64,000 nucleotides of DNA, from contig DUQH01000035.1 of the NCBI GenBank assembly GCA_012837895.1, positions 1 to 64,000 of the forward strand. The letters are read 5' to 3'. Positions within the stretch are counted from its first letter, which is position 1; each line of letters begins with the position of its first letter. A program made the translations under genes and the position numbers. A model generated the notes under the pieces. That model did not search any database, was not told the origin of the DNA, and saw only the letters and a list, made by a program, of their open reading frames with translations. Source of the DNA: Candidatus Fermentithermobacillaceae bacterium. GTDB taxonomy: Bacteria > Bacillota > Sulfobacillia > Fermentithermobacillales > Fermentithermobacillaceae. This document shows positions 7,024 through 58,712 of the stretch, in pieces.

Positions 7024-8700
7024 TCAATGAAGCAACTGCTCAGCTATCTTTCTGAAGAGGGGAGCAGCTATGGTGGGTCCGTCACCGGCTCGTTCACAAA
7101 ACACGCATATCACATACTTGGGAGACAGGATAGGCGTCCAGCCTATGAACCACGCATGACTTGAGGGAGAGTCTCCATTCAACTCAGCAGTGCCTGTCTT
7201 GCCTGCACTGCCGAAACCAGGAACCCAGGCTGCTTTACCTGTGCCCTCCTGTGCCGAAAGGAGCAGCGCTTCCTGCAAGACTCTGGACACCCGCTCCGAG
7301 AACAGGGTCTTTTCGTTTGCCTCTGAACCTGGCACGAGTCCGGGATTTTTCCATTCCCCGCCACAGACAACGGCTCTGTAAAAGCACGCCGCCTGGATAG
7401 GTGTGATTGTAAGATATCCCTGGCCTATAGAGTAGTTTGCCACATCCCCTGGGAGCATTGAGCCTGGAGCAGGCAGGATTCCGGCAGATTGTCCGGCAAG
7501 GGGAAGCCGCAGCTTGTTACCGAAGCCACATTCCAGCGCCCAATCCACCAGCTCTTGCGGTGGCACCCTCAAACCGATTTCAATCAGGGCGCAGTTGCAG
7601 GACAGAGCCAGTGCCTGCCTGACCGTGACCCTCCCGTGGCCTTCAGGGGAAGCACCGCAGTTAATCACCGTAGATCCAACCTCAATCCTTCCGCGACACT
7701 CAAACACTTCATCAGGGTATACATAACCCTTCTCAAGAGCTAATGACAGCACGACGGTTTTCCACACCGACCCGGGGGTGAAATCGCTGGTACTCCTGTT
7801 TACGAAGGGTGAATCAGGAAGTTGAAAGTAGTCTTCAGGGTGATTTTGATCGTACTGGGGCCTGGATGCCATAGCAAGGATCTCCCCGCTTATTGCGTCC
7901 AAGACGATCACGCCACTCTTTTGGACGTCTTCCTGATCCAAGACACGCTCCACTAAGTATTGAACTCGCACATCCAAGGTAGTCAGGAGATCTTCGGGGT
8001 GATCACCTGTAGGGCCTATCCTCATACCTGAGCCTGGGATTTCCAGTCCATCTCCTGTAACCAGGGTTCCAACCCACGCAGGAGTTCCACCGGTGAGGCT
8101 GGTCTGGAACCAGCTTTCAAGCCCGCTTTCCCCAATGTTGTCTTTGGGATTTACATATGCGTTAGGCCTTATGTGTCCCACCACATGCCTTGCCAGTGAT
8201 CCCGGCCCGTACCTTACTGCTTCGGGGATTACCACAAGGCCGGGTATGGGGCAGGACATTATCGCTTCCACCTGCTCAGGAGACAACCCCCTGGATAGCT
8301 TAAACGGGGTAGTGTGGGTATCCAGCATTGTCTCAAGGCTGTGTTCATCCATGCCGGTAAGCACTGCGACCTCTTCCACAAAGCTTTGCCTGTCGTCTAT
8401 TTTGGAAGGGAAAACAGCCAGGGCTGAGTGCCAGCACGGGTAATGGAGCGGCACCCCGTTCTTGTCAAGTATCCTTCCCCGGGCTAAAGCTACAGGAACA
8501 CTTTCCCGCCTTTGCAGGGAGGCAGGCCTTATGTACTTGATTCCAGCAATGGAATCAATAAGCTGGTAGTGAATTAACAGACCCAGGAAGAACAAGAATA
8601 CGCAACCAAACCCAAACAGAACGTATCTTATCCTGGAACCGGTAACGTCGTCTGAAACCTGCCCGTTTACGCACGCCTGGAACTTCCGGATTTTGCTCAC
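7024..8700 (-). CDS. Class B penicillin-binding protein (peptidoglycan transpeptidase)
   Basis: A bitopic membrane enzyme that crosslinks peptidoglycan. One transmembrane helix near residues 25-45 is followed by a dimerisation domain with ARGRILDKNG and a transpeptidase domain carrying all three active-site motifs: SxxK in TPGSVWK, SxN in LSCN, and KTG in AGKTGTAEL. It belongs to the FtsI/PbpA/SpoVD group. Its coupling to the TPR-CofE gene and closeness to sigK hint at a sporulation or elongation role, but I see no PASTA domain. I chose GTG 8700, with GGGAGG 5 nt upstream, over an ATG nine codons earlier. Confidence 0.92.
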   Translation of the reverse strand: MSKIRKFQACVNGQVSDDVTGSRIRYVLFGFGCVFLFFLGLLIHYQLIDSIAGIKYIRPASLQRRESVPVALARGRILDKNGVPLHYPCWHSALAVFPSKIDDRQSFVEEVAVLTGMDEHSLETMLDTHTTPFKLSRGLSPEQVEAIMSCPIPGLVVIPEAVRYGPGSLARHVVGHIRPNAYVNPKDNIGESGLESWFQTSLTGGTPAWVGTLVTGDGLEIPGSGMRIGPTGDHPEDLLTTLDVRVQYLVERVLDQEDVQKSGVIVLDAISGEILAMASRPQYDQNHPEDYFQLPDSPFVNRSTSDFTPGSVWKTVVLSLALEKGYVYPDEVFECRGRIEVGSTVINCGASPEGHGRVTVRQALALSCNCALIEIGLRVPPQELVDWALECGFGNKLRLPLAGQSAGILPAPGSMLPGDVANYSIGQGYLTITPIQAACFYRAVVCGGEWKNPGLVPGSEANEKTLFSERVSRVLQEALLLSAQEGTGKAAWVPGFGSAGKTGTAELNGDSPSSHAWFIGWTPILSPKYVICVFCERAGDGPTIAAPLFRKIAEQLLH

Positions 8701-29461: not shown

Positions 29462-29612
29462 CAAAAAGCCCCTCTGACAAGAAGAGAGGCATAAATCCCC
29501 TTATCTGCCAGAACCAAACTTCTGCTGGTTCTGTTGGAGTTGGCACCTTCGCACTCTGTGCGGGTTGCCGCAGGGTCACTGGGCCAATTCCCTCACCTGC
29601 TCTGGATAAGGA
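29462..29612 (-). ncRNA. SAM-I (S-box) riboswitch with terminator, controls metNIQ
   Basis: Reading the minus strand from 29612, the S-box consensus is clear: CTTATCCAGAGCAGGTGAGG, then GGCCCAGTGACCCTGCGGCAACC, GGTGCCAACTCC and the closing arm GGCAGATAAGG. Downstream a hairpin (GCCTCTCT pairing with AGAGGGGC, 29463-29490) followed by TTTTTG forms the expression-platform terminator. When SAM is bound transcription should stop here; when SAM is low the met transporter genes are read. The terminator lies 20 nt before the metN start. Confidence 0.95.
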
Positions 29613-53482: not shown

Positions 53483-56113
53483 TCACCTGCTTTTTGATTG
53501 ATAGGCGATTCTGAACACGTCCGGTATGACAGAAACCAGGAAGATAACCAGCCACTGGACGGCACTTAGGGGCACTGTGTCGAAGAGCACACCAAGCGCT
53601 GGTATTTGGACAGTAGCCAACAGCATAAGCCAGGAAAGCGCGCACGCGCCGATCAGGTACATATTGGAGAAAATCCCGATTTCAAATGGAGAATGGGTCT
53701 CCGACCGGCAATCAATCGCAGATACCAGCTGCACTGTAACCAGGGTGGCAAAGGCCATGGTGGAAGCAGTGGGCAGGTCCCATATCCTCAACGCTTCTAT
53801 GAACATGAGCAGCGTTGCAACGCCCACATATATGCCGCGCTCAAGTATCATCCGGCTCAATCCGCCGGCAAACAGACTTTCATCTGGGTCCCTGGGCGGC
53901 CTTTTCATTATTGAAGTATCCGGCGGATCCATGCTCAGGGCCAGCGCAGGCAAACCATCGGTCACCAGGTTCATCATTAATATCTGTATCGGGGTAAGCG
54001 GCATAGGCAATCCCAGCAGCACTGCAAACCCTACTGTAATCACTTCGCCAAGGTTGCACGACAGCATGTACCTGATGAATCTCCTGATGTTGTCGTAAAT
54101 TGCCCTACCCGCTTCCACTGCTTTCACAATGGTAGCAAAATTGTCATCAAGCAGCACTATTGAGCTTGACTCCCTTGCAATGTCGCTGCCTGATCTGCCC
54201 ATAGCCACCCCCACTGCTGCCTCTTTCAGCGCAGGCCCGTCGTTAATGCCGTCGCCTGTCATGGCTACTATATGTCCTTGTCTCTTGAGCGCCCGCACTA
54301 TTTTGAGCTTGTGGGCAGGCGACACCCGGGCGAACACGTTGTGCCCTTCCACAACTGTTCCAAGCACGCTGTCAGGCATGCTGTCCAGGAGTTCTCCTGT
54401 GACTCCCTGGGCGTCCCGGGGTAAGATATGAGTTTCCCTGGCAATGCTCTCTGCGGTCTTGAGATGGTCACCGGTAACAAGCACCGTCCTTATCCCTGCT
54501 AACCTGCATTTCTCCACTGATGAAGCTGCCTCGGACCTGAGCGGGTCTGCCATGGCAAGACATCCGAGCAACACAAGCCGGTCTTCCTTATACGGACCGG
54601 CCTTTCTACCTCGCTGTTCTTGCCGCTTCGCTACTGCAAGGATGCGCATGCCCCTGGCAGCCCTGGCGTTTATCCATTCCTCCCAGGCATATGTTTCTTC
54701 TACCCCAACCTTGAGCACCCTGCCCCTGGCTTCCTGAGCAGCACACAAAGGGATAACCGTGTCCGGGGCGCCCTTTACACAAATCAGGGGCCCGCCCGGC
54801 ATGTCTACCATCACACTCATCATCCTGCTTTCAGGCGTGAAAGGGTTGGTGTCAATACGGGGATACTGTGTGTCAAGGGTAGCTGGATCGTATCCAAGAC
54901 TCAAGTACCCGGCTACAATCGCTTGCTCAGTGGGGTCCTCCATGACATCTGCATAATCACCGGGTGGATGCCTTGCATCCGATGCCAGCACTGCAACCTC
55001 AAGGATGTGCTCTGCAAGTGTCCGGTTCTTATGGGACCTGAAGTCTCCAAATACTGTTTCTATCCCTCCGGCACCAGGCACCCCGATTTCCACGACTTCC
55101 ATCTGGTTCGTTGTAAGGGTCCCCGTCTTATCGGTGCATATCACAGTAACTGAACCCAAGGTTTCGATTGCTTCAAGTTTCCTCACCACAGCACCTTTTC
55201 TGGCCATTTCTTGAACTCCCATTGCTAGACATAGAGTCACTGTGGCAGGCAGCCCCTCGGGAATAGCAGCCACCGCTAAACTCACTGCAGTGAGAAACAT
55301 GTCATGGAAAGGTATTCCCCTGAAAAACCCGATGGCAGCAAGCGCCACGCATATGCCAAGACAAGAAGCCAATAGTGCCTTACTCAGAGACTCCAACCTG
55401 GATTCCAGGGGAGTCTTTTGGCTCTCTGCAGCTTGCAGCAAGCTTGCTATCTGACCCATTTCGGTCCTCATCCCTGTGGCGGTGACAACCATAACGCCAC
55501 TGCCCCTTGTCACCAAAGTACCTGAATATACCATGTTCTTCCGTTCAGAAAGCCCTGTGGCTTCAGGCAACACTGTTTCAGAATGTTTGCTAACAGGAAA
55601 AGGTTCGCCTGTGAGTATCGACTCTTCCAGTTGAAGTGACTCAGACGCCACCAGCCTGCCGTCGGCGGGCACCCTTACCCCGGGCCAAAGCAAGACAATA
55701 TCCCCTGGAACCACTGTTTCAGGATGGATCTCTACTGTGGCCCCATTACGCAGCACGCAACAAACTGAAGGCGAATAAACCTCCAGCGCTTTGAGTGACT
55801 CCTCGGCCTTGTACTCCTGAACCATCCCCAGCAAGGCATTGAGGAGCACAATCGCTGATATTACCAGGGCATCAACTACTTCTCCCATGAAGGCGGAGAT
55901 AGCAGTAGCTCCCAGAAGGGTTACTACCATGGGATCTGTGAATTGGGACCATAGCAACTTGAGCCATCCAGGCTTTGCCTTCTTGACGATCTTGTTCGGG
56001 CCCCACCTAGAAAGCCGCCGCCTGGCTTCCCTTGTATGAAGTCCGGTTGAAGCGTCACTTCCAAGAAGCTTCACAGCGTCTTGCCACGTGAGAGAATGGA
56101 ATCGATAGGACAT
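53483..56113 (-). CDS. P-type calcium-transporting ATPase (P2A)
   Basis: An 876-residue pump with ten predicted transmembrane helices. N-terminal cation ATPase domain (WQDAVKLLGSDASTGL), actuator TGEPFPVSK, phosphorylation site CTDKTGTLTTNQM, P-domain MTGDGINDGPALKEA. M4 has AAIPEGLPATVT and M6 has MNLVTDGLPALALSMDPPD, which give the Glu, Asn and Asp ligands of SERCA/PMR1-type Ca2+ pumps. It should export Ca2+ (or Mn2+) from the cytoplasm. ATG 56113 is the start. The candidate structured RNA lies directly upstream, on the opposite strand. Confidence 0.94.
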   Translation of the reverse strand: MSYRFHSLTWQDAVKLLGSDASTGLHTREARRRLSRWGPNKIVKKAKPGWLKLLWSQFTDPMVVTLLGATAISAFMGEVVDALVISAIVLLNALLGMVQEYKAEESLKALEVYSPSVCCVLRNGATVEIHPETVVPGDIVLLWPGVRVPADGRLVASESLQLEESILTGEPFPVSKHSETVLPEATGLSERKNMVYSGTLVTRGSGVMVVTATGMRTEMGQIASLLQAAESQKTPLESRLESLSKALLASCLGICVALAAIGFFRGIPFHDMFLTAVSLAVAAIPEGLPATVTLCLAMGVQEMARKGAVVRKLEAIETLGSVTVICTDKTGTLTTNQMEVVEIGVPGAGGIETVFGDFRSHKNRTLAEHILEVAVLASDARHPPGDYADVMEDPTEQAIVAGYLSLGYDPATLDTQYPRIDTNPFTPESRMMSVMVDMPGGPLICVKGAPDTVIPLCAAQEARGRVLKVGVEETYAWEEWINARAARGMRILAVAKRQEQRGRKAGPYKEDRLVLLGCLAMADPLRSEAASSVEKCRLAGIRTVLVTGDHLKTAESIARETHILPRDAQGVTGELLDSMPDSVLGTVVEGHNVFARVSPAHKLKIVRALKRQGHIVAMTGDGINDGPALKEAAVGVAMGRSGSDIARESSSIVLLDDNFATIVKAVEAGRAIYDNIRRFIRYMLSCNLGEVITVGFAVLLGLPMPLTPIQILMMNLVTDGLPALALSMDPPDTSIMKRPPRDPDESLFAGGLSRMILERGIYVGVATLLMFIEALRIWDLPTASTMAFATLVTVQLVSAIDCRSETHSPFEIGIFSNMYLIGACALSWLMLLATVQIPALGVLFDTVPLSAVQWLVIFLVSVIPDVFRIAYQSKSR

Positions 56114-56137
56114 AGAGTGCAGGATCCCTCCACTGAG

Positions 56138-56167
56138 TTGTCGTTAGGGCTATCTCAAAAATCTTAT
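56138..56167 (+). promoter_or_regulatory. Candidate promoter of the large structured RNA
   Basis: TTGTCG (56138-56143), 18 nt, then TCTTAT (56162-56167), 4/6 matches in each box. The predicted start (about 56172-56174) falls just before the first helix of the RNA, which supports it. Confidence 0.45.
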
Positions 56168-56171
56168 GACC

Positions 56172-56665
56172 GGGCCACCGTAATATGTCTGAACGGTGAG
56201 TACCCAGCCGCCTGAAAAAACCCGCCCCGGAGTGAATATCCTGGAGGCAAAGGGGAAATCACTAATCCCGGGTCCATCATAGCCGGGCAAAGATCAGCCA
56301 GGGCGGAGTGGTCCTGGTTGGTCGGGCAAAGGTGGCAACACCCGCGCTAAGGTGTTGTCGCCGGCGCGAAGGTCATATTGCTTCTTGGAAAACCATGTAG
56401 TGCGGTTTAAGGGTCTGAAATTACCCTCGTAGGTAATTTCAGGCTCGGTAGAGAGGCAATATGGCTGAGCTAAGATCGTTCAAATTGCCGTATGGGTCTG
56501 GATTACCGCGAGGTAATTCAGGTTCAAAAGGTAGTTTGAATGGTCGAGCACAGGTCATCCGGTTGCGGTTCAGGATTCATAAAGCATGGGTTCTAACACC
56601 GTGGCCTGATGGCCGAAAGCGAAGGTTATGATGGGCCGGTTCCATCCCGGCGCCATCATACCTTC
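56172..56665 (+). ncRNA. Candidate large structured non-coding RNA, about 490 nt
   Basis: This 560-bp gap between two P-type ATPase genes has no plausible reading frame but many long helices. Examples: 56292-56302 with 56313-56323 (11 bp), 56331-56342 with 56351-56362 (12 bp), 56371-56381 with 56456-56466 (11 bp) enclosing 56415-56425 with 56432-56442 (11 bp), 56474-56489 with 56530-56545 (16 bp) enclosing 56498-56507 with 56512-56521 (10 bp, GCGA tetraloop), and a last hairpin 56622-56664. About eleven pairs are G.U if the RNA is read on the plus strand; they would be A.C mismatches on the minus strand. This fixes the sense strand. It is not RNase P, tmRNA or SRP RNA by conserved motifs. OLE-type RNA is possible from size and host, but I cannot confirm it. 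Confidence 0.7.
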
Positions 56666-56675
56666 TCAACCACCG

Positions 56676-58712
56676 TTAACCCTTAGTGTCTGAAACTCCA
56701 GGATGCCTCAGTATCCTCAAACCATTGAATGTGACAAGTACAGCAGCGCCTGAGTCAGCAAGCACAGCCAGCCAGAGGGGAAGCACTCCTCCAAACACCA
56801 TGACCAACGCCAAGAGCTTTATGGCAATGGAAAATGCCACGTTTTGGACAATCAAACTGCGGGCTTTCCCTGCCAAACCGATTGCCCAAGGCACAGTCCG
56901 CAGATCGTTCTTCATGAGGGCAATGCCTGCAGTTTCCAGCGCCACATCAGTGCCTTTTCCCATGGCAATTCCCACACTTGCTGCTGCCAGAGATGGGGCA
57001 TCGTTAGCCCCGTCGCCTACCATGGCAACATGTTCAAACTCATCCATGAGTTTACGTATATATGCGACCTTATCCCCAGGCATAAGGCCTGCCTCTACCT
57101 TACCGATTCCGGCCTCTGCTGCCACAACGGCGGCAGTAGCCCTATTGTCACCGGTGAGCATTACAACTTCCTTACCTTTCTCAAGAAGCTCCGAAATCGC
57201 ATCCCTGGCTTCAGGCCGGATTGCATCTGAAAGGCAAACAGCGCCCAAGACATCCCTTCCGCTTCCCACAAACACTACTGTCTTGCCTTGGCTCCGGAAC
57301 TTATCTGCAGTCTCTTGCAGGTAGGCAGGCATATCAATTCCCAATCCTGCAAACAAGTTCTCGCTGCCCACGTATGCTGTTTCATTGTTCACTGTTGCAT
57401 ACGCTCCTTTGCCCCTGATTGAGGTAAAGTTCTCGCCTGGAACGAACCTGACTCCTTTAGCCTGGGCTTCGTCTACTATAGCCCTTGCCAGCGGATGCTC
57501 TGATCTAGACTCCACTGCTGCGGCAATTCCGAGCAGATCACCGGCCGTAACGGAATTGCCCGGCCGCAAGATAACTTGGTCCACAGTAAGTTTTCCCTGT
57601 GTAACAGTCCCTGTCTTGTCCATTGCCACCGCCTTTACAGTCCCTAATGCCTCAAGATATGTCCCGCCTTTTATGAGAACCCCGTTTCTCGCGGCCCTGG
57701 CAATAGAGGCTACAACCGTAACCGGAGTTGAAATCACCAAGGAACAGGGACAAGACACTATGAGTACCGTGAGTCCCCTGTAAACCCAAGGCCTCCACGC
57801 CTGGTTGAGCAGCAGGGGCACACCGGCTGCCAGTGCCACCGAAAGTACAAGCATAAGCGGGGTCCAATAGCCTGCAAAAGTATCGACTAACCTCTGGGAT
57901 CTGGCCCTTTGGTGCTGGGATTGCTCAACCATGGCTATTATCCGTGCAAGGGTCGTGTCTCCTGGCATTCTGGTAACCAGGATATCAAGGGTGCCTTCAC
58001 CGTTGAGGCTTCCTGCAAACACCTGGCTTCCCGGCTGTTTGTCAACGGGGATGGATTCTCCCGTTATGTGCGATTGGTCGACTGAGGACGCGCCTGACAC
58101 AACTTCACCGTCAACAGGGATTTTCTCACCGGGAAACACAACCACAGTATCCCCTGGCACCACTTCCCCGGCAGCGATCACAGAAAACCGGTCACCAAGC
58201 TTTACCCGGGCGGTCAAAGGTGAAAGATCCATGATATCCCTTATGGACTTCCTGGTCCTCTCTCCCGCCTTTTGTTCCAGGTATTCACCTATACTGAAAA
58301 GAGTCAGCACAGCCGCGCCTTCGGCCCATTCGCCTAGCACCATTGCCCCGACACCGGCAACGGTTGTGAGGAAGTTAATATCTGCGCCTTTCCCAGAAAC
58401 AAGCGCGCCCAAACCTGCCCTGGCAACAGGGACGCCGGCAGCCACCGCCGCAATCATGTATGGGATTTTATAGGCTGAATACCCAAGACGGCGCAGGACA
58501 AAACCGAACACGATTCCAATGATTCCGAGAAGCGGTGGCAGAAGTTCTCTTACGCTACCGCGCTCCCCTTCCCTATGGGCAAGGGTGATAGCATGGCTAT
58601 GATTACAGTCGCAACCGCTTTCATAAACATGTAGATGTGTGTGAGAATGGTGTAGCTTGCCGCGTCCTTGGCTGCAGCTGCACATCTCTGCAGCATTTGT
58701 TCTCTTGCGCAT
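56676..58712 (-). CDS. Heavy-metal P-type ATPase (Zn/Cd/Pb type)
   Basis: A 678-residue P1B pump. The transport site in M6 is VSCPCSLVIS; phosphorylation AMDKTGTVTQG; nucleotide-site SEHPLARAIV; hinge MVGDGANDAPSLAAA. Late Asp in LAVLADSGAAVLVTFN fits P1B-2 (Zn2+/Cd2+/Pb2+). There is no folded HMA domain; instead the first 45 residues are rich in His and Cys (MCSCSQGRGKLHHSHTHLH, then CDCNHSHAITLAH), a likely metal-binding tail. It follows the ArsR-type repressor by 31 nt, forming a metal efflux operon. Confidence 0.95.
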   Translation of the reverse strand: MRKRTNAAEMCSCSQGRGKLHHSHTHLHVYESGCDCNHSHAITLAHREGERGSVRELLPPLLGIIGIVFGFVLRRLGYSAYKIPYMIAAVAAGVPVARAGLGALVSGKGADINFLTTVAGVGAMVLGEWAEGAAVLTLFSIGEYLEQKAGERTRKSIRDIMDLSPLTARVKLGDRFSVIAAGEVVPGDTVVVFPGEKIPVDGEVVSGASSVDQSHITGESIPVDKQPGSQVFAGSLNGEGTLDILVTRMPGDTTLARIIAMVEQSQHQRARSQRLVDTFAGYWTPLMLVLSVALAAGVPLLLNQAWRPWVYRGLTVLIVSCPCSLVISTPVTVVASIARAARNGVLIKGGTYLEALGTVKAVAMDKTGTVTQGKLTVDQVILRPGNSVTAGDLLGIAAAVESRSEHPLARAIVDEAQAKGVRFVPGENFTSIRGKGAYATVNNETAYVGSENLFAGLGIDMPAYLQETADKFRSQGKTVVFVGSGRDVLGAVCLSDAIRPEARDAISELLEKGKEVVMLTGDNRATAAVVAAEAGIGKVEAGLMPGDKVAYIRKLMDEFEHVAMVGDGANDAPSLAAASVGIAMGKGTDVALETAGIALMKNDLRTVPWAIGLAGKARSLIVQNVAFSIAIKLLALVMVFGGVLPLWLAVLADSGAAVLVTFNGLRILRHPGVSDTKG

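Follow-up and report, generated by a model that had tools for sequence, protein, structure and literature searches.

To our knowledge, few bacterial RNAs match the RNA described here in size, complexity and breadth of distribution. Among large structured RNAs, OLE (RF01071), an ornate RNA of anaerobic and extremophilic Gram-positive bacteria, forms an RNA-only dimer, and ROOL and GOLLD form RNA-only multimers, while the raiA motif RNA, a widespread and compact structured RNA of Bacillota, is a monomer of about 205 nt (PMC12286853); the latter (ModT) has been studied in Clostridioides difficile (PMC11706538). On the other hand, CsfG and the 294-nt Bvs196 are described as independent forespore transcripts of Bacillus under sigma-F/sigma-G, with Bvs196 reported to bind mRNAs (PMC9147052). 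The new RNA is large and structured like OLE, ROOL and GOLLD, but has no Rfam match, and unlike OLE it combines a six-way junction, repeated linkers, a length of about 370 nt and a predicted forespore-type promoter. It is compact and widespread in Bacillota like raiA, but its fold is another one and cmscan gives no raiA match. With CsfG and Bvs196 it shares the predicted promoter type, whereas no such junction is described for them in the part of that source available, a distinction drawn from descriptions rather than from sequence comparison.

The RNA lies in a 64,000-nt stretch of DNA from a Candidatus Fermentithermobacillaceae bacterium (contig DUQH01000035.1; the whole stretch is called the window), where a preliminary description had placed a large structured RNA on the plus strand at 56172-56665. 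Folding bears this out, since the plus strand of 56150-56690 reaches -242.7 kcal/mol (z -9.3, with none of 100 shuffles equally good) against a much weaker -189.7 kcal/mol (z -4.8) for the minus strand, a difference that also supports the earlier remark that the G.U pairs are sensible on the plus strand only. The window thus holds a real structured RNA, whose core at 56271-56637 (+), 367 nt long, folds on its own into a six-way junction made of an outer helix, P1, and five arms, A to E. The limits first given do enclose this RNA, but the conserved part is restricted to the core: the segment 56172-56270 is poorly conserved and contains a predicted promoter directly 5′ of the core, and the helix reported beyond P1, up to 56665, is present but belongs to a 3′ extension (56638-56667, +) found in five members of this genus only. 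Within this extension the P1 5′ strand is repeated (CCATCATACC), and the repeat could take over the pairing with the P1 3′ strand, a possible alternative fold. Small ORFs of up to 56 aa overlap the region, but, in keeping with the initial impression that no reading frame was plausible, no conserved frame is evident, and arm lengths differ among relatives by non-multiples of three. The RNA is single-copy, no second copy being found in its own 2.05-Mb assembly, and no phage or plasmid matches to it were found.

A scan with the 4227 families of Rfam 15 gave no match at gathering score over the RNA, either in the window or in 14 diverse homologous loci, so that neither OLE nor another large RNA family covers it; models of RNase P, tmRNA and introns were equally silent over the RNA in the window and in the 14 loci. 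A permissive cmscan of 56050-56750 (E <= 10) returned neither OLE nor a related family, only a chance match to mir-657, and the suggestion of a divergent OLE-like RNA fails on these searches, on the lack of any OLE match in the 14 loci and on the different architecture. The other option raised at that time, a new RNA class, is supported by the lack of Rfam matches and by the covariation among homologues detailed below. No earlier description of the RNA was found in the open-access literature, whose coverage is incomplete. Judged from these comparisons, it appears to be new as an RNA class, although large structured bacterial RNAs in the broad sense are a known kind.

Nucleotide searches with blastn among 61 relatives recovered the region from other members of the genus, the family and the order, and the copies, set side by side, share one plan of P1, five arms and six near-identical linkers. 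With a covariance model built on the RNA's 5′ part (R1), 39 of the 154 genomes searched in the class proved positive, and with a broader model (R2) 146 of 398 genomes of the phylum, spread over 108 of 266 genera. In a search of 18 named genomes, the two positive records scored E values of about 1e-17, and the 16 from other groups (Streptomyces, Pseudomonas, lactobacilli, Butyrivibrio and others) gave chance scores only, the best at E 0.09. A pattern search of contigs produced many chance matches, of which the covariance-model filter left only Bacillota at significant scores. These matches are best explained as a class of noncoding RNAs of about 370-450 nt in spore-forming Bacillota. Some genomes contain multiple copies, namely G185 (contigs C1 and C18), G164 (C41), G304 (C3) and G522 (C36 and C13), and at loci L250 and L244 two copies of the RNA lie a few kilobases apart.

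The general plan is a closed six-way junction in which P1 and the five arms are separated by linkers of the form GR-GC-NAA. In the window, all on the plus strand, the P1 5′ strand (GGTCCATCATAGCC, 56271-56284) pairs with the P1 3′ strand (GGTTATGATGGGCC, 56624-56637). Between them follow linker J1 (GGGCAAA, 56285-56291), the hairpin of arm A (56292-56323), J2 (GGGCAAA, 56324-56330), the hairpin of arm B (56331-56362), J3 (GGCGCGAA, 56363-56370) and arm C (56371-56466), a hairpin of 96 nt that measures about 75 nt in most relatives. The second half comprises J4 (GAGCTAA, 56467-56473), arm D (56474-56545), J5 (GAGCACA, 56546-56552), arm E (56553-56614), a hairpin of 62 nt here, and J6 (GAAAGCGAA, 56615-56623). 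The GCGA tetraloop noticed at the outset caps arm D, and in relatives other GNRA loops (GAAA, GCAA, GUAA, GAGA) take its place. Arm lengths are regular: 57 parsed relatives share an arm E of exactly 74 nt, arm C measures 75-77 nt in most, arm A 32-41 nt in nearly all, and arm D 72-79 nt in many and more in others, while B is variable; P1 has 14-20 bp in most RNAs.

Covariation among homologues, proposed as a check in the preliminary description, is decisive, and P1 and all five arms covary strongly. Across 36 parsed RNAs the six helices are 91.7-99.7% paired, compared with 64-82% when the 3′ strands are exchanged among species, and double-sided changes occur at 7-8 of 10 pairs in each helix; P1 marks the upper end, with 99.7% pairing and double changes at 7 of 10 pairs. 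In the same RNAs, most helices have a conserved U.G as their third pair, counted from the junction. A separate pair count for arms A and B gave 98.3% pairing and 155 double-change cells against 41 in shuffles, a signal that is lost when the partners are slid by one to three columns. The 74-76-nt length of arms C-E had raised the suspicion of tRNA-like cruciforms, which was rejected on the column covariation of 56 E arms; it shows one long hairpin interrupted by a 4x4 internal loop and, in most of these arms, closed by a GNRA cap.

The linkers are themselves paired through their GC dinucleotides: 56287-56288 in J1 with 56469-56470 in J4, J2 with 56366-56367 in J3, and 56548-56549 in J5 with 56619-56620 in J6. 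Among 88 RNAs, pairing is kept in 86 for J1-J4, 85 for J2-J3 and 76 for J5-J6, and only these 3 of the 15 linker combinations exceed shuffles; the model in which each arm closes its own flanking GC pair was discarded in their favour. Dinucleotide covariation preserves pairing in 31 of 32 double changes for J2-J3 and in 3 of 3 for J1-J4. J5-J6 is less secure than the other two contacts: in the register applied, no more than 5 of its 17 double changes pair, and a one-base shift may account for some of the others. The combination of GC mini-helices with NAA/GR linkers is similar to that of kink-turn RNAs, but the geometry differs. In many RNAs the second half is matched by the first-half model as well, and J1/J4, J2/J5 and J3/J6 are alike, so that the RNA looks like an internal duplication. 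A natural three-way half, with P1, A, B and three linkers only, occurs at locus L070 (G029:C14, match 7819-7953). With its six repeated linkers, covarying linker pairs and half-size form, the architecture clearly illustrates how an RNA can grow by duplication.

Upstream of the core, a de novo motif search in 98 homologues recovered two boxes, nAYAMTA near P1 (log-likelihood 161 versus 13-20 in shuffles) and tGNATA farther 5′ (83 versus 5-17), with a spacing peak at 17 and GG directly 5′ of the -10 box (GNATA-N14/15-GGNNANANTA). The resulting family consensus, TGNATA-N14/15-GGNNAYAMTA, ends 5-12 nt 5′ of P1. Both boxes at a spacing of 15-19 are present in 62 of the 98 upstreams, against a mean of 4 in shuffles, with matrices that were trained on these same upstreams. 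The sigma-F consensus has the form GGNNANANT. As an untrained test, a fixed sigma-F pattern was looked for: 18 of the 98 upstreams contain it, compared with 15 among 20,000 windows drawn at random from the same loci, and a sigma-A-like pattern occurs in 1 of the 98. The family spacing agrees with the 14-15 nt that separate the elements of sigma-F promoters (PMC5942855). The family promoter is predicted to be of the sigma-F/sigma-G, or forespore, type; the consensus sequences of sigma-F and sigma-G overlap in C. difficile (PMC7438776), and no choice is made between the two. In the window, the predicted -35 box TGAATA (56233-56238, +) is kept, as in the rest of the genus, and the predicted -10 box ATCACTA (56258-56264, +) is weaker than the family consensus, with a longer spacing of 19 nt in this lineage. 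At the other end, the first 12 nt 3′ of P1 contain 5.2 U versus 3.0 farther on, which corresponds to a U-rich, terminator-like stretch in most relatives; the U-run is absent in the window's own copy.

The distribution of the RNA follows that of the forespore sigma factor gene sigG. In the phylum, 141 of the 146 RNA-positive genomes carry sigG, and 60 of the 65 genomes lacking it also lack the RNA (Fisher p = 1.4e-8, a significance inflated by the shared ancestry of the genomes); the five RNA-positive genomes without a strong sigG match are incomplete assemblies or ones split into at least 130 contigs. Within the class, all RNA-positive genomes but one have sigG (Fisher p 0.03), and in the window's own family the genomes without sigG (G007, G010, G012) are also without the RNA. 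Conversely, no copy was detectable in 192 of the 333 genomes with sigG, and the RNA is therefore not universal in spore formers. One carrier of both RNA and sigG, G463, is inferred to be Acetohalobium arabaticum, a species in which spores were not observed (PMC3035264).

The genes around the RNA were surveyed at 97 context loci, with families named by reading of clusters and Pfam run on seven representatives. LigD Prim-Pol proteins occur at 17, DNA ligases at 12, Ku at 5, alpha/beta SASPs at 5 and Gate-domain proteins, which we take to be SpmA/SpmB, at 7-10, and murC-like or unrelated neighbours also occur; of two SASP-like proteins submitted to Pfam, one matched PF00269 and the other stayed below threshold. 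Ku/LigD and SASPs are members of forespore regulons in Bacillus. The two ion-pump genes that flank the RNA in the window had been thought potentially meaningful, but P-type ATPase genes flank it at 8 of the 97 loci only: the pump neighbourhood is incidental, and a role in ion-pump regulation was rejected on this context.

Sequence comparison establishes a conserved RNA with its fold, its pairings and a promoter motif of its own, as well as the co-occurrence with sigG. Promoter type, co-occurrence with sigG and gene neighbours point to the forespore, and we consider it likely that this is a new class of noncoding RNAs, independently transcribed in that compartment. Its presence in many spore-forming Bacillota, together with the forespore-type promoter sequences, suggests that the RNA probably acts in making or keeping spores. 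Sporulation is a classic developmental system explored chiefly through its proteins, and a large RNA conserved in about a third of the sampled genomes of the phylum would bring an RNA component to spore formation. The pathway would start with transcription by sigma-F and/or sigma-G at or just 5′ of P1. The RNA folds as a six-helix junction in which a module of arms A, B and C and a pseudo-symmetric one of D, E and P1 are connected via J1-J4, with J2-J3 closing arm B, J5-J6 closing arm E, and purine-rich NAA/GR linkers beside every helix, while P1 and the U-rich tail would end transcription in most relatives. Finally, the RNA would work in trans in the forespore or the spore core as a stable, rigid scaffold, either as the core of an RNP or as an RNA-only particle docked via its GNRA-capped arms, and serve spore maturation, dormancy or chromosome protection. 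We propose this scaffold role only tentatively. In a bolder version, the forespore-made RNA is an internally duplicated fused dimer whose six GNRA-capped arms, of nearly equal length, would self-assemble into a particle or bind proteins of the spore and so give order to its dormant interior, and the three-way form at L070 would dimerise via the palindromic GC of its J1; this version is speculative and unlikely. The architecture is also a tractable target for cryo-EM.

A forespore regulatory RNA with a role like that of CsfG or Bvs196, pairing with spore mRNAs through exposed loops or linkers, is the strongest competitor, if a rather unlikely one. Such sigma-F/G-dependent small RNAs are known in Bacillus, CsfG and Bvs196 among them (PMC9147052), and the same promoter type is predicted upstream of the new RNA. 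However, the latter is nearly all helical, its loops have either a GNRA or a variable sequence, conservation of unpaired bases is highest in the NAA/GR linkers within the junction, and no conserved single-stranded seed was seen. Given the lack of exposed conserved sequence, the GNRA-capped arms of regular length and the internal symmetry, we favour a structural or RNP-scaffold role over base-pairing regulation with modest confidence.

At three loci (L063, L065, L068) the RNA is followed immediately by a SASP gene in the same orientation, as would suit a cis-acting leader or riboswitch acting on the gene that comes next. This reading seems improbable, since the neighbouring genes differ widely among loci, as does their orientation, which is often antisense, a U-rich stretch usually lies 3′ of P1, and both genes flanking the RNA in the window, those for the ion pumps, are on the other strand. 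Still less probable is an element acting as DNA, such as a cruciform or a protein-loading or chromosome-organising site, for which the long inverted repeats and the nearby DNA-protection and repair genes of some lineages (SASP, Ku, LigD) might speak: the strand-asymmetric stability, the conserved U.G third pair in most helices, the GNRA caps, the covariation through G.U and the oriented promoter all count against it. Least credible of all is a divergent form of a known large RNA (OLE, RNase P, tmRNA, raiA, HEARO, ROOL, GOLLD or a group I/II intron), suggested by size and complexity but already contradicted by cmscan, by the lack of any Rfam match, by a different fold and by a normal RNase P class A gene that is separate from the new RNA at locus L223.

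Some further observations concern the surroundings of the RNA and the Rfam scans. At loci L059, L060 and L086 of a sister genus, a gene for an FAD-dependent oxidoreductase lies directly upstream of the RNA with no pump gene between them; in the window the same oxidoreductase is found beyond the Ca2+ pump. At L222 (9012-9183), a match to Group II intron D1-D4-3 barely over the cut-off lies beside rRNA and tRNA genes. Elsewhere in the window, the Rfam scan placed a SAM riboswitch (RF00162) at 29498-29612 (-), with 87.8 bits.
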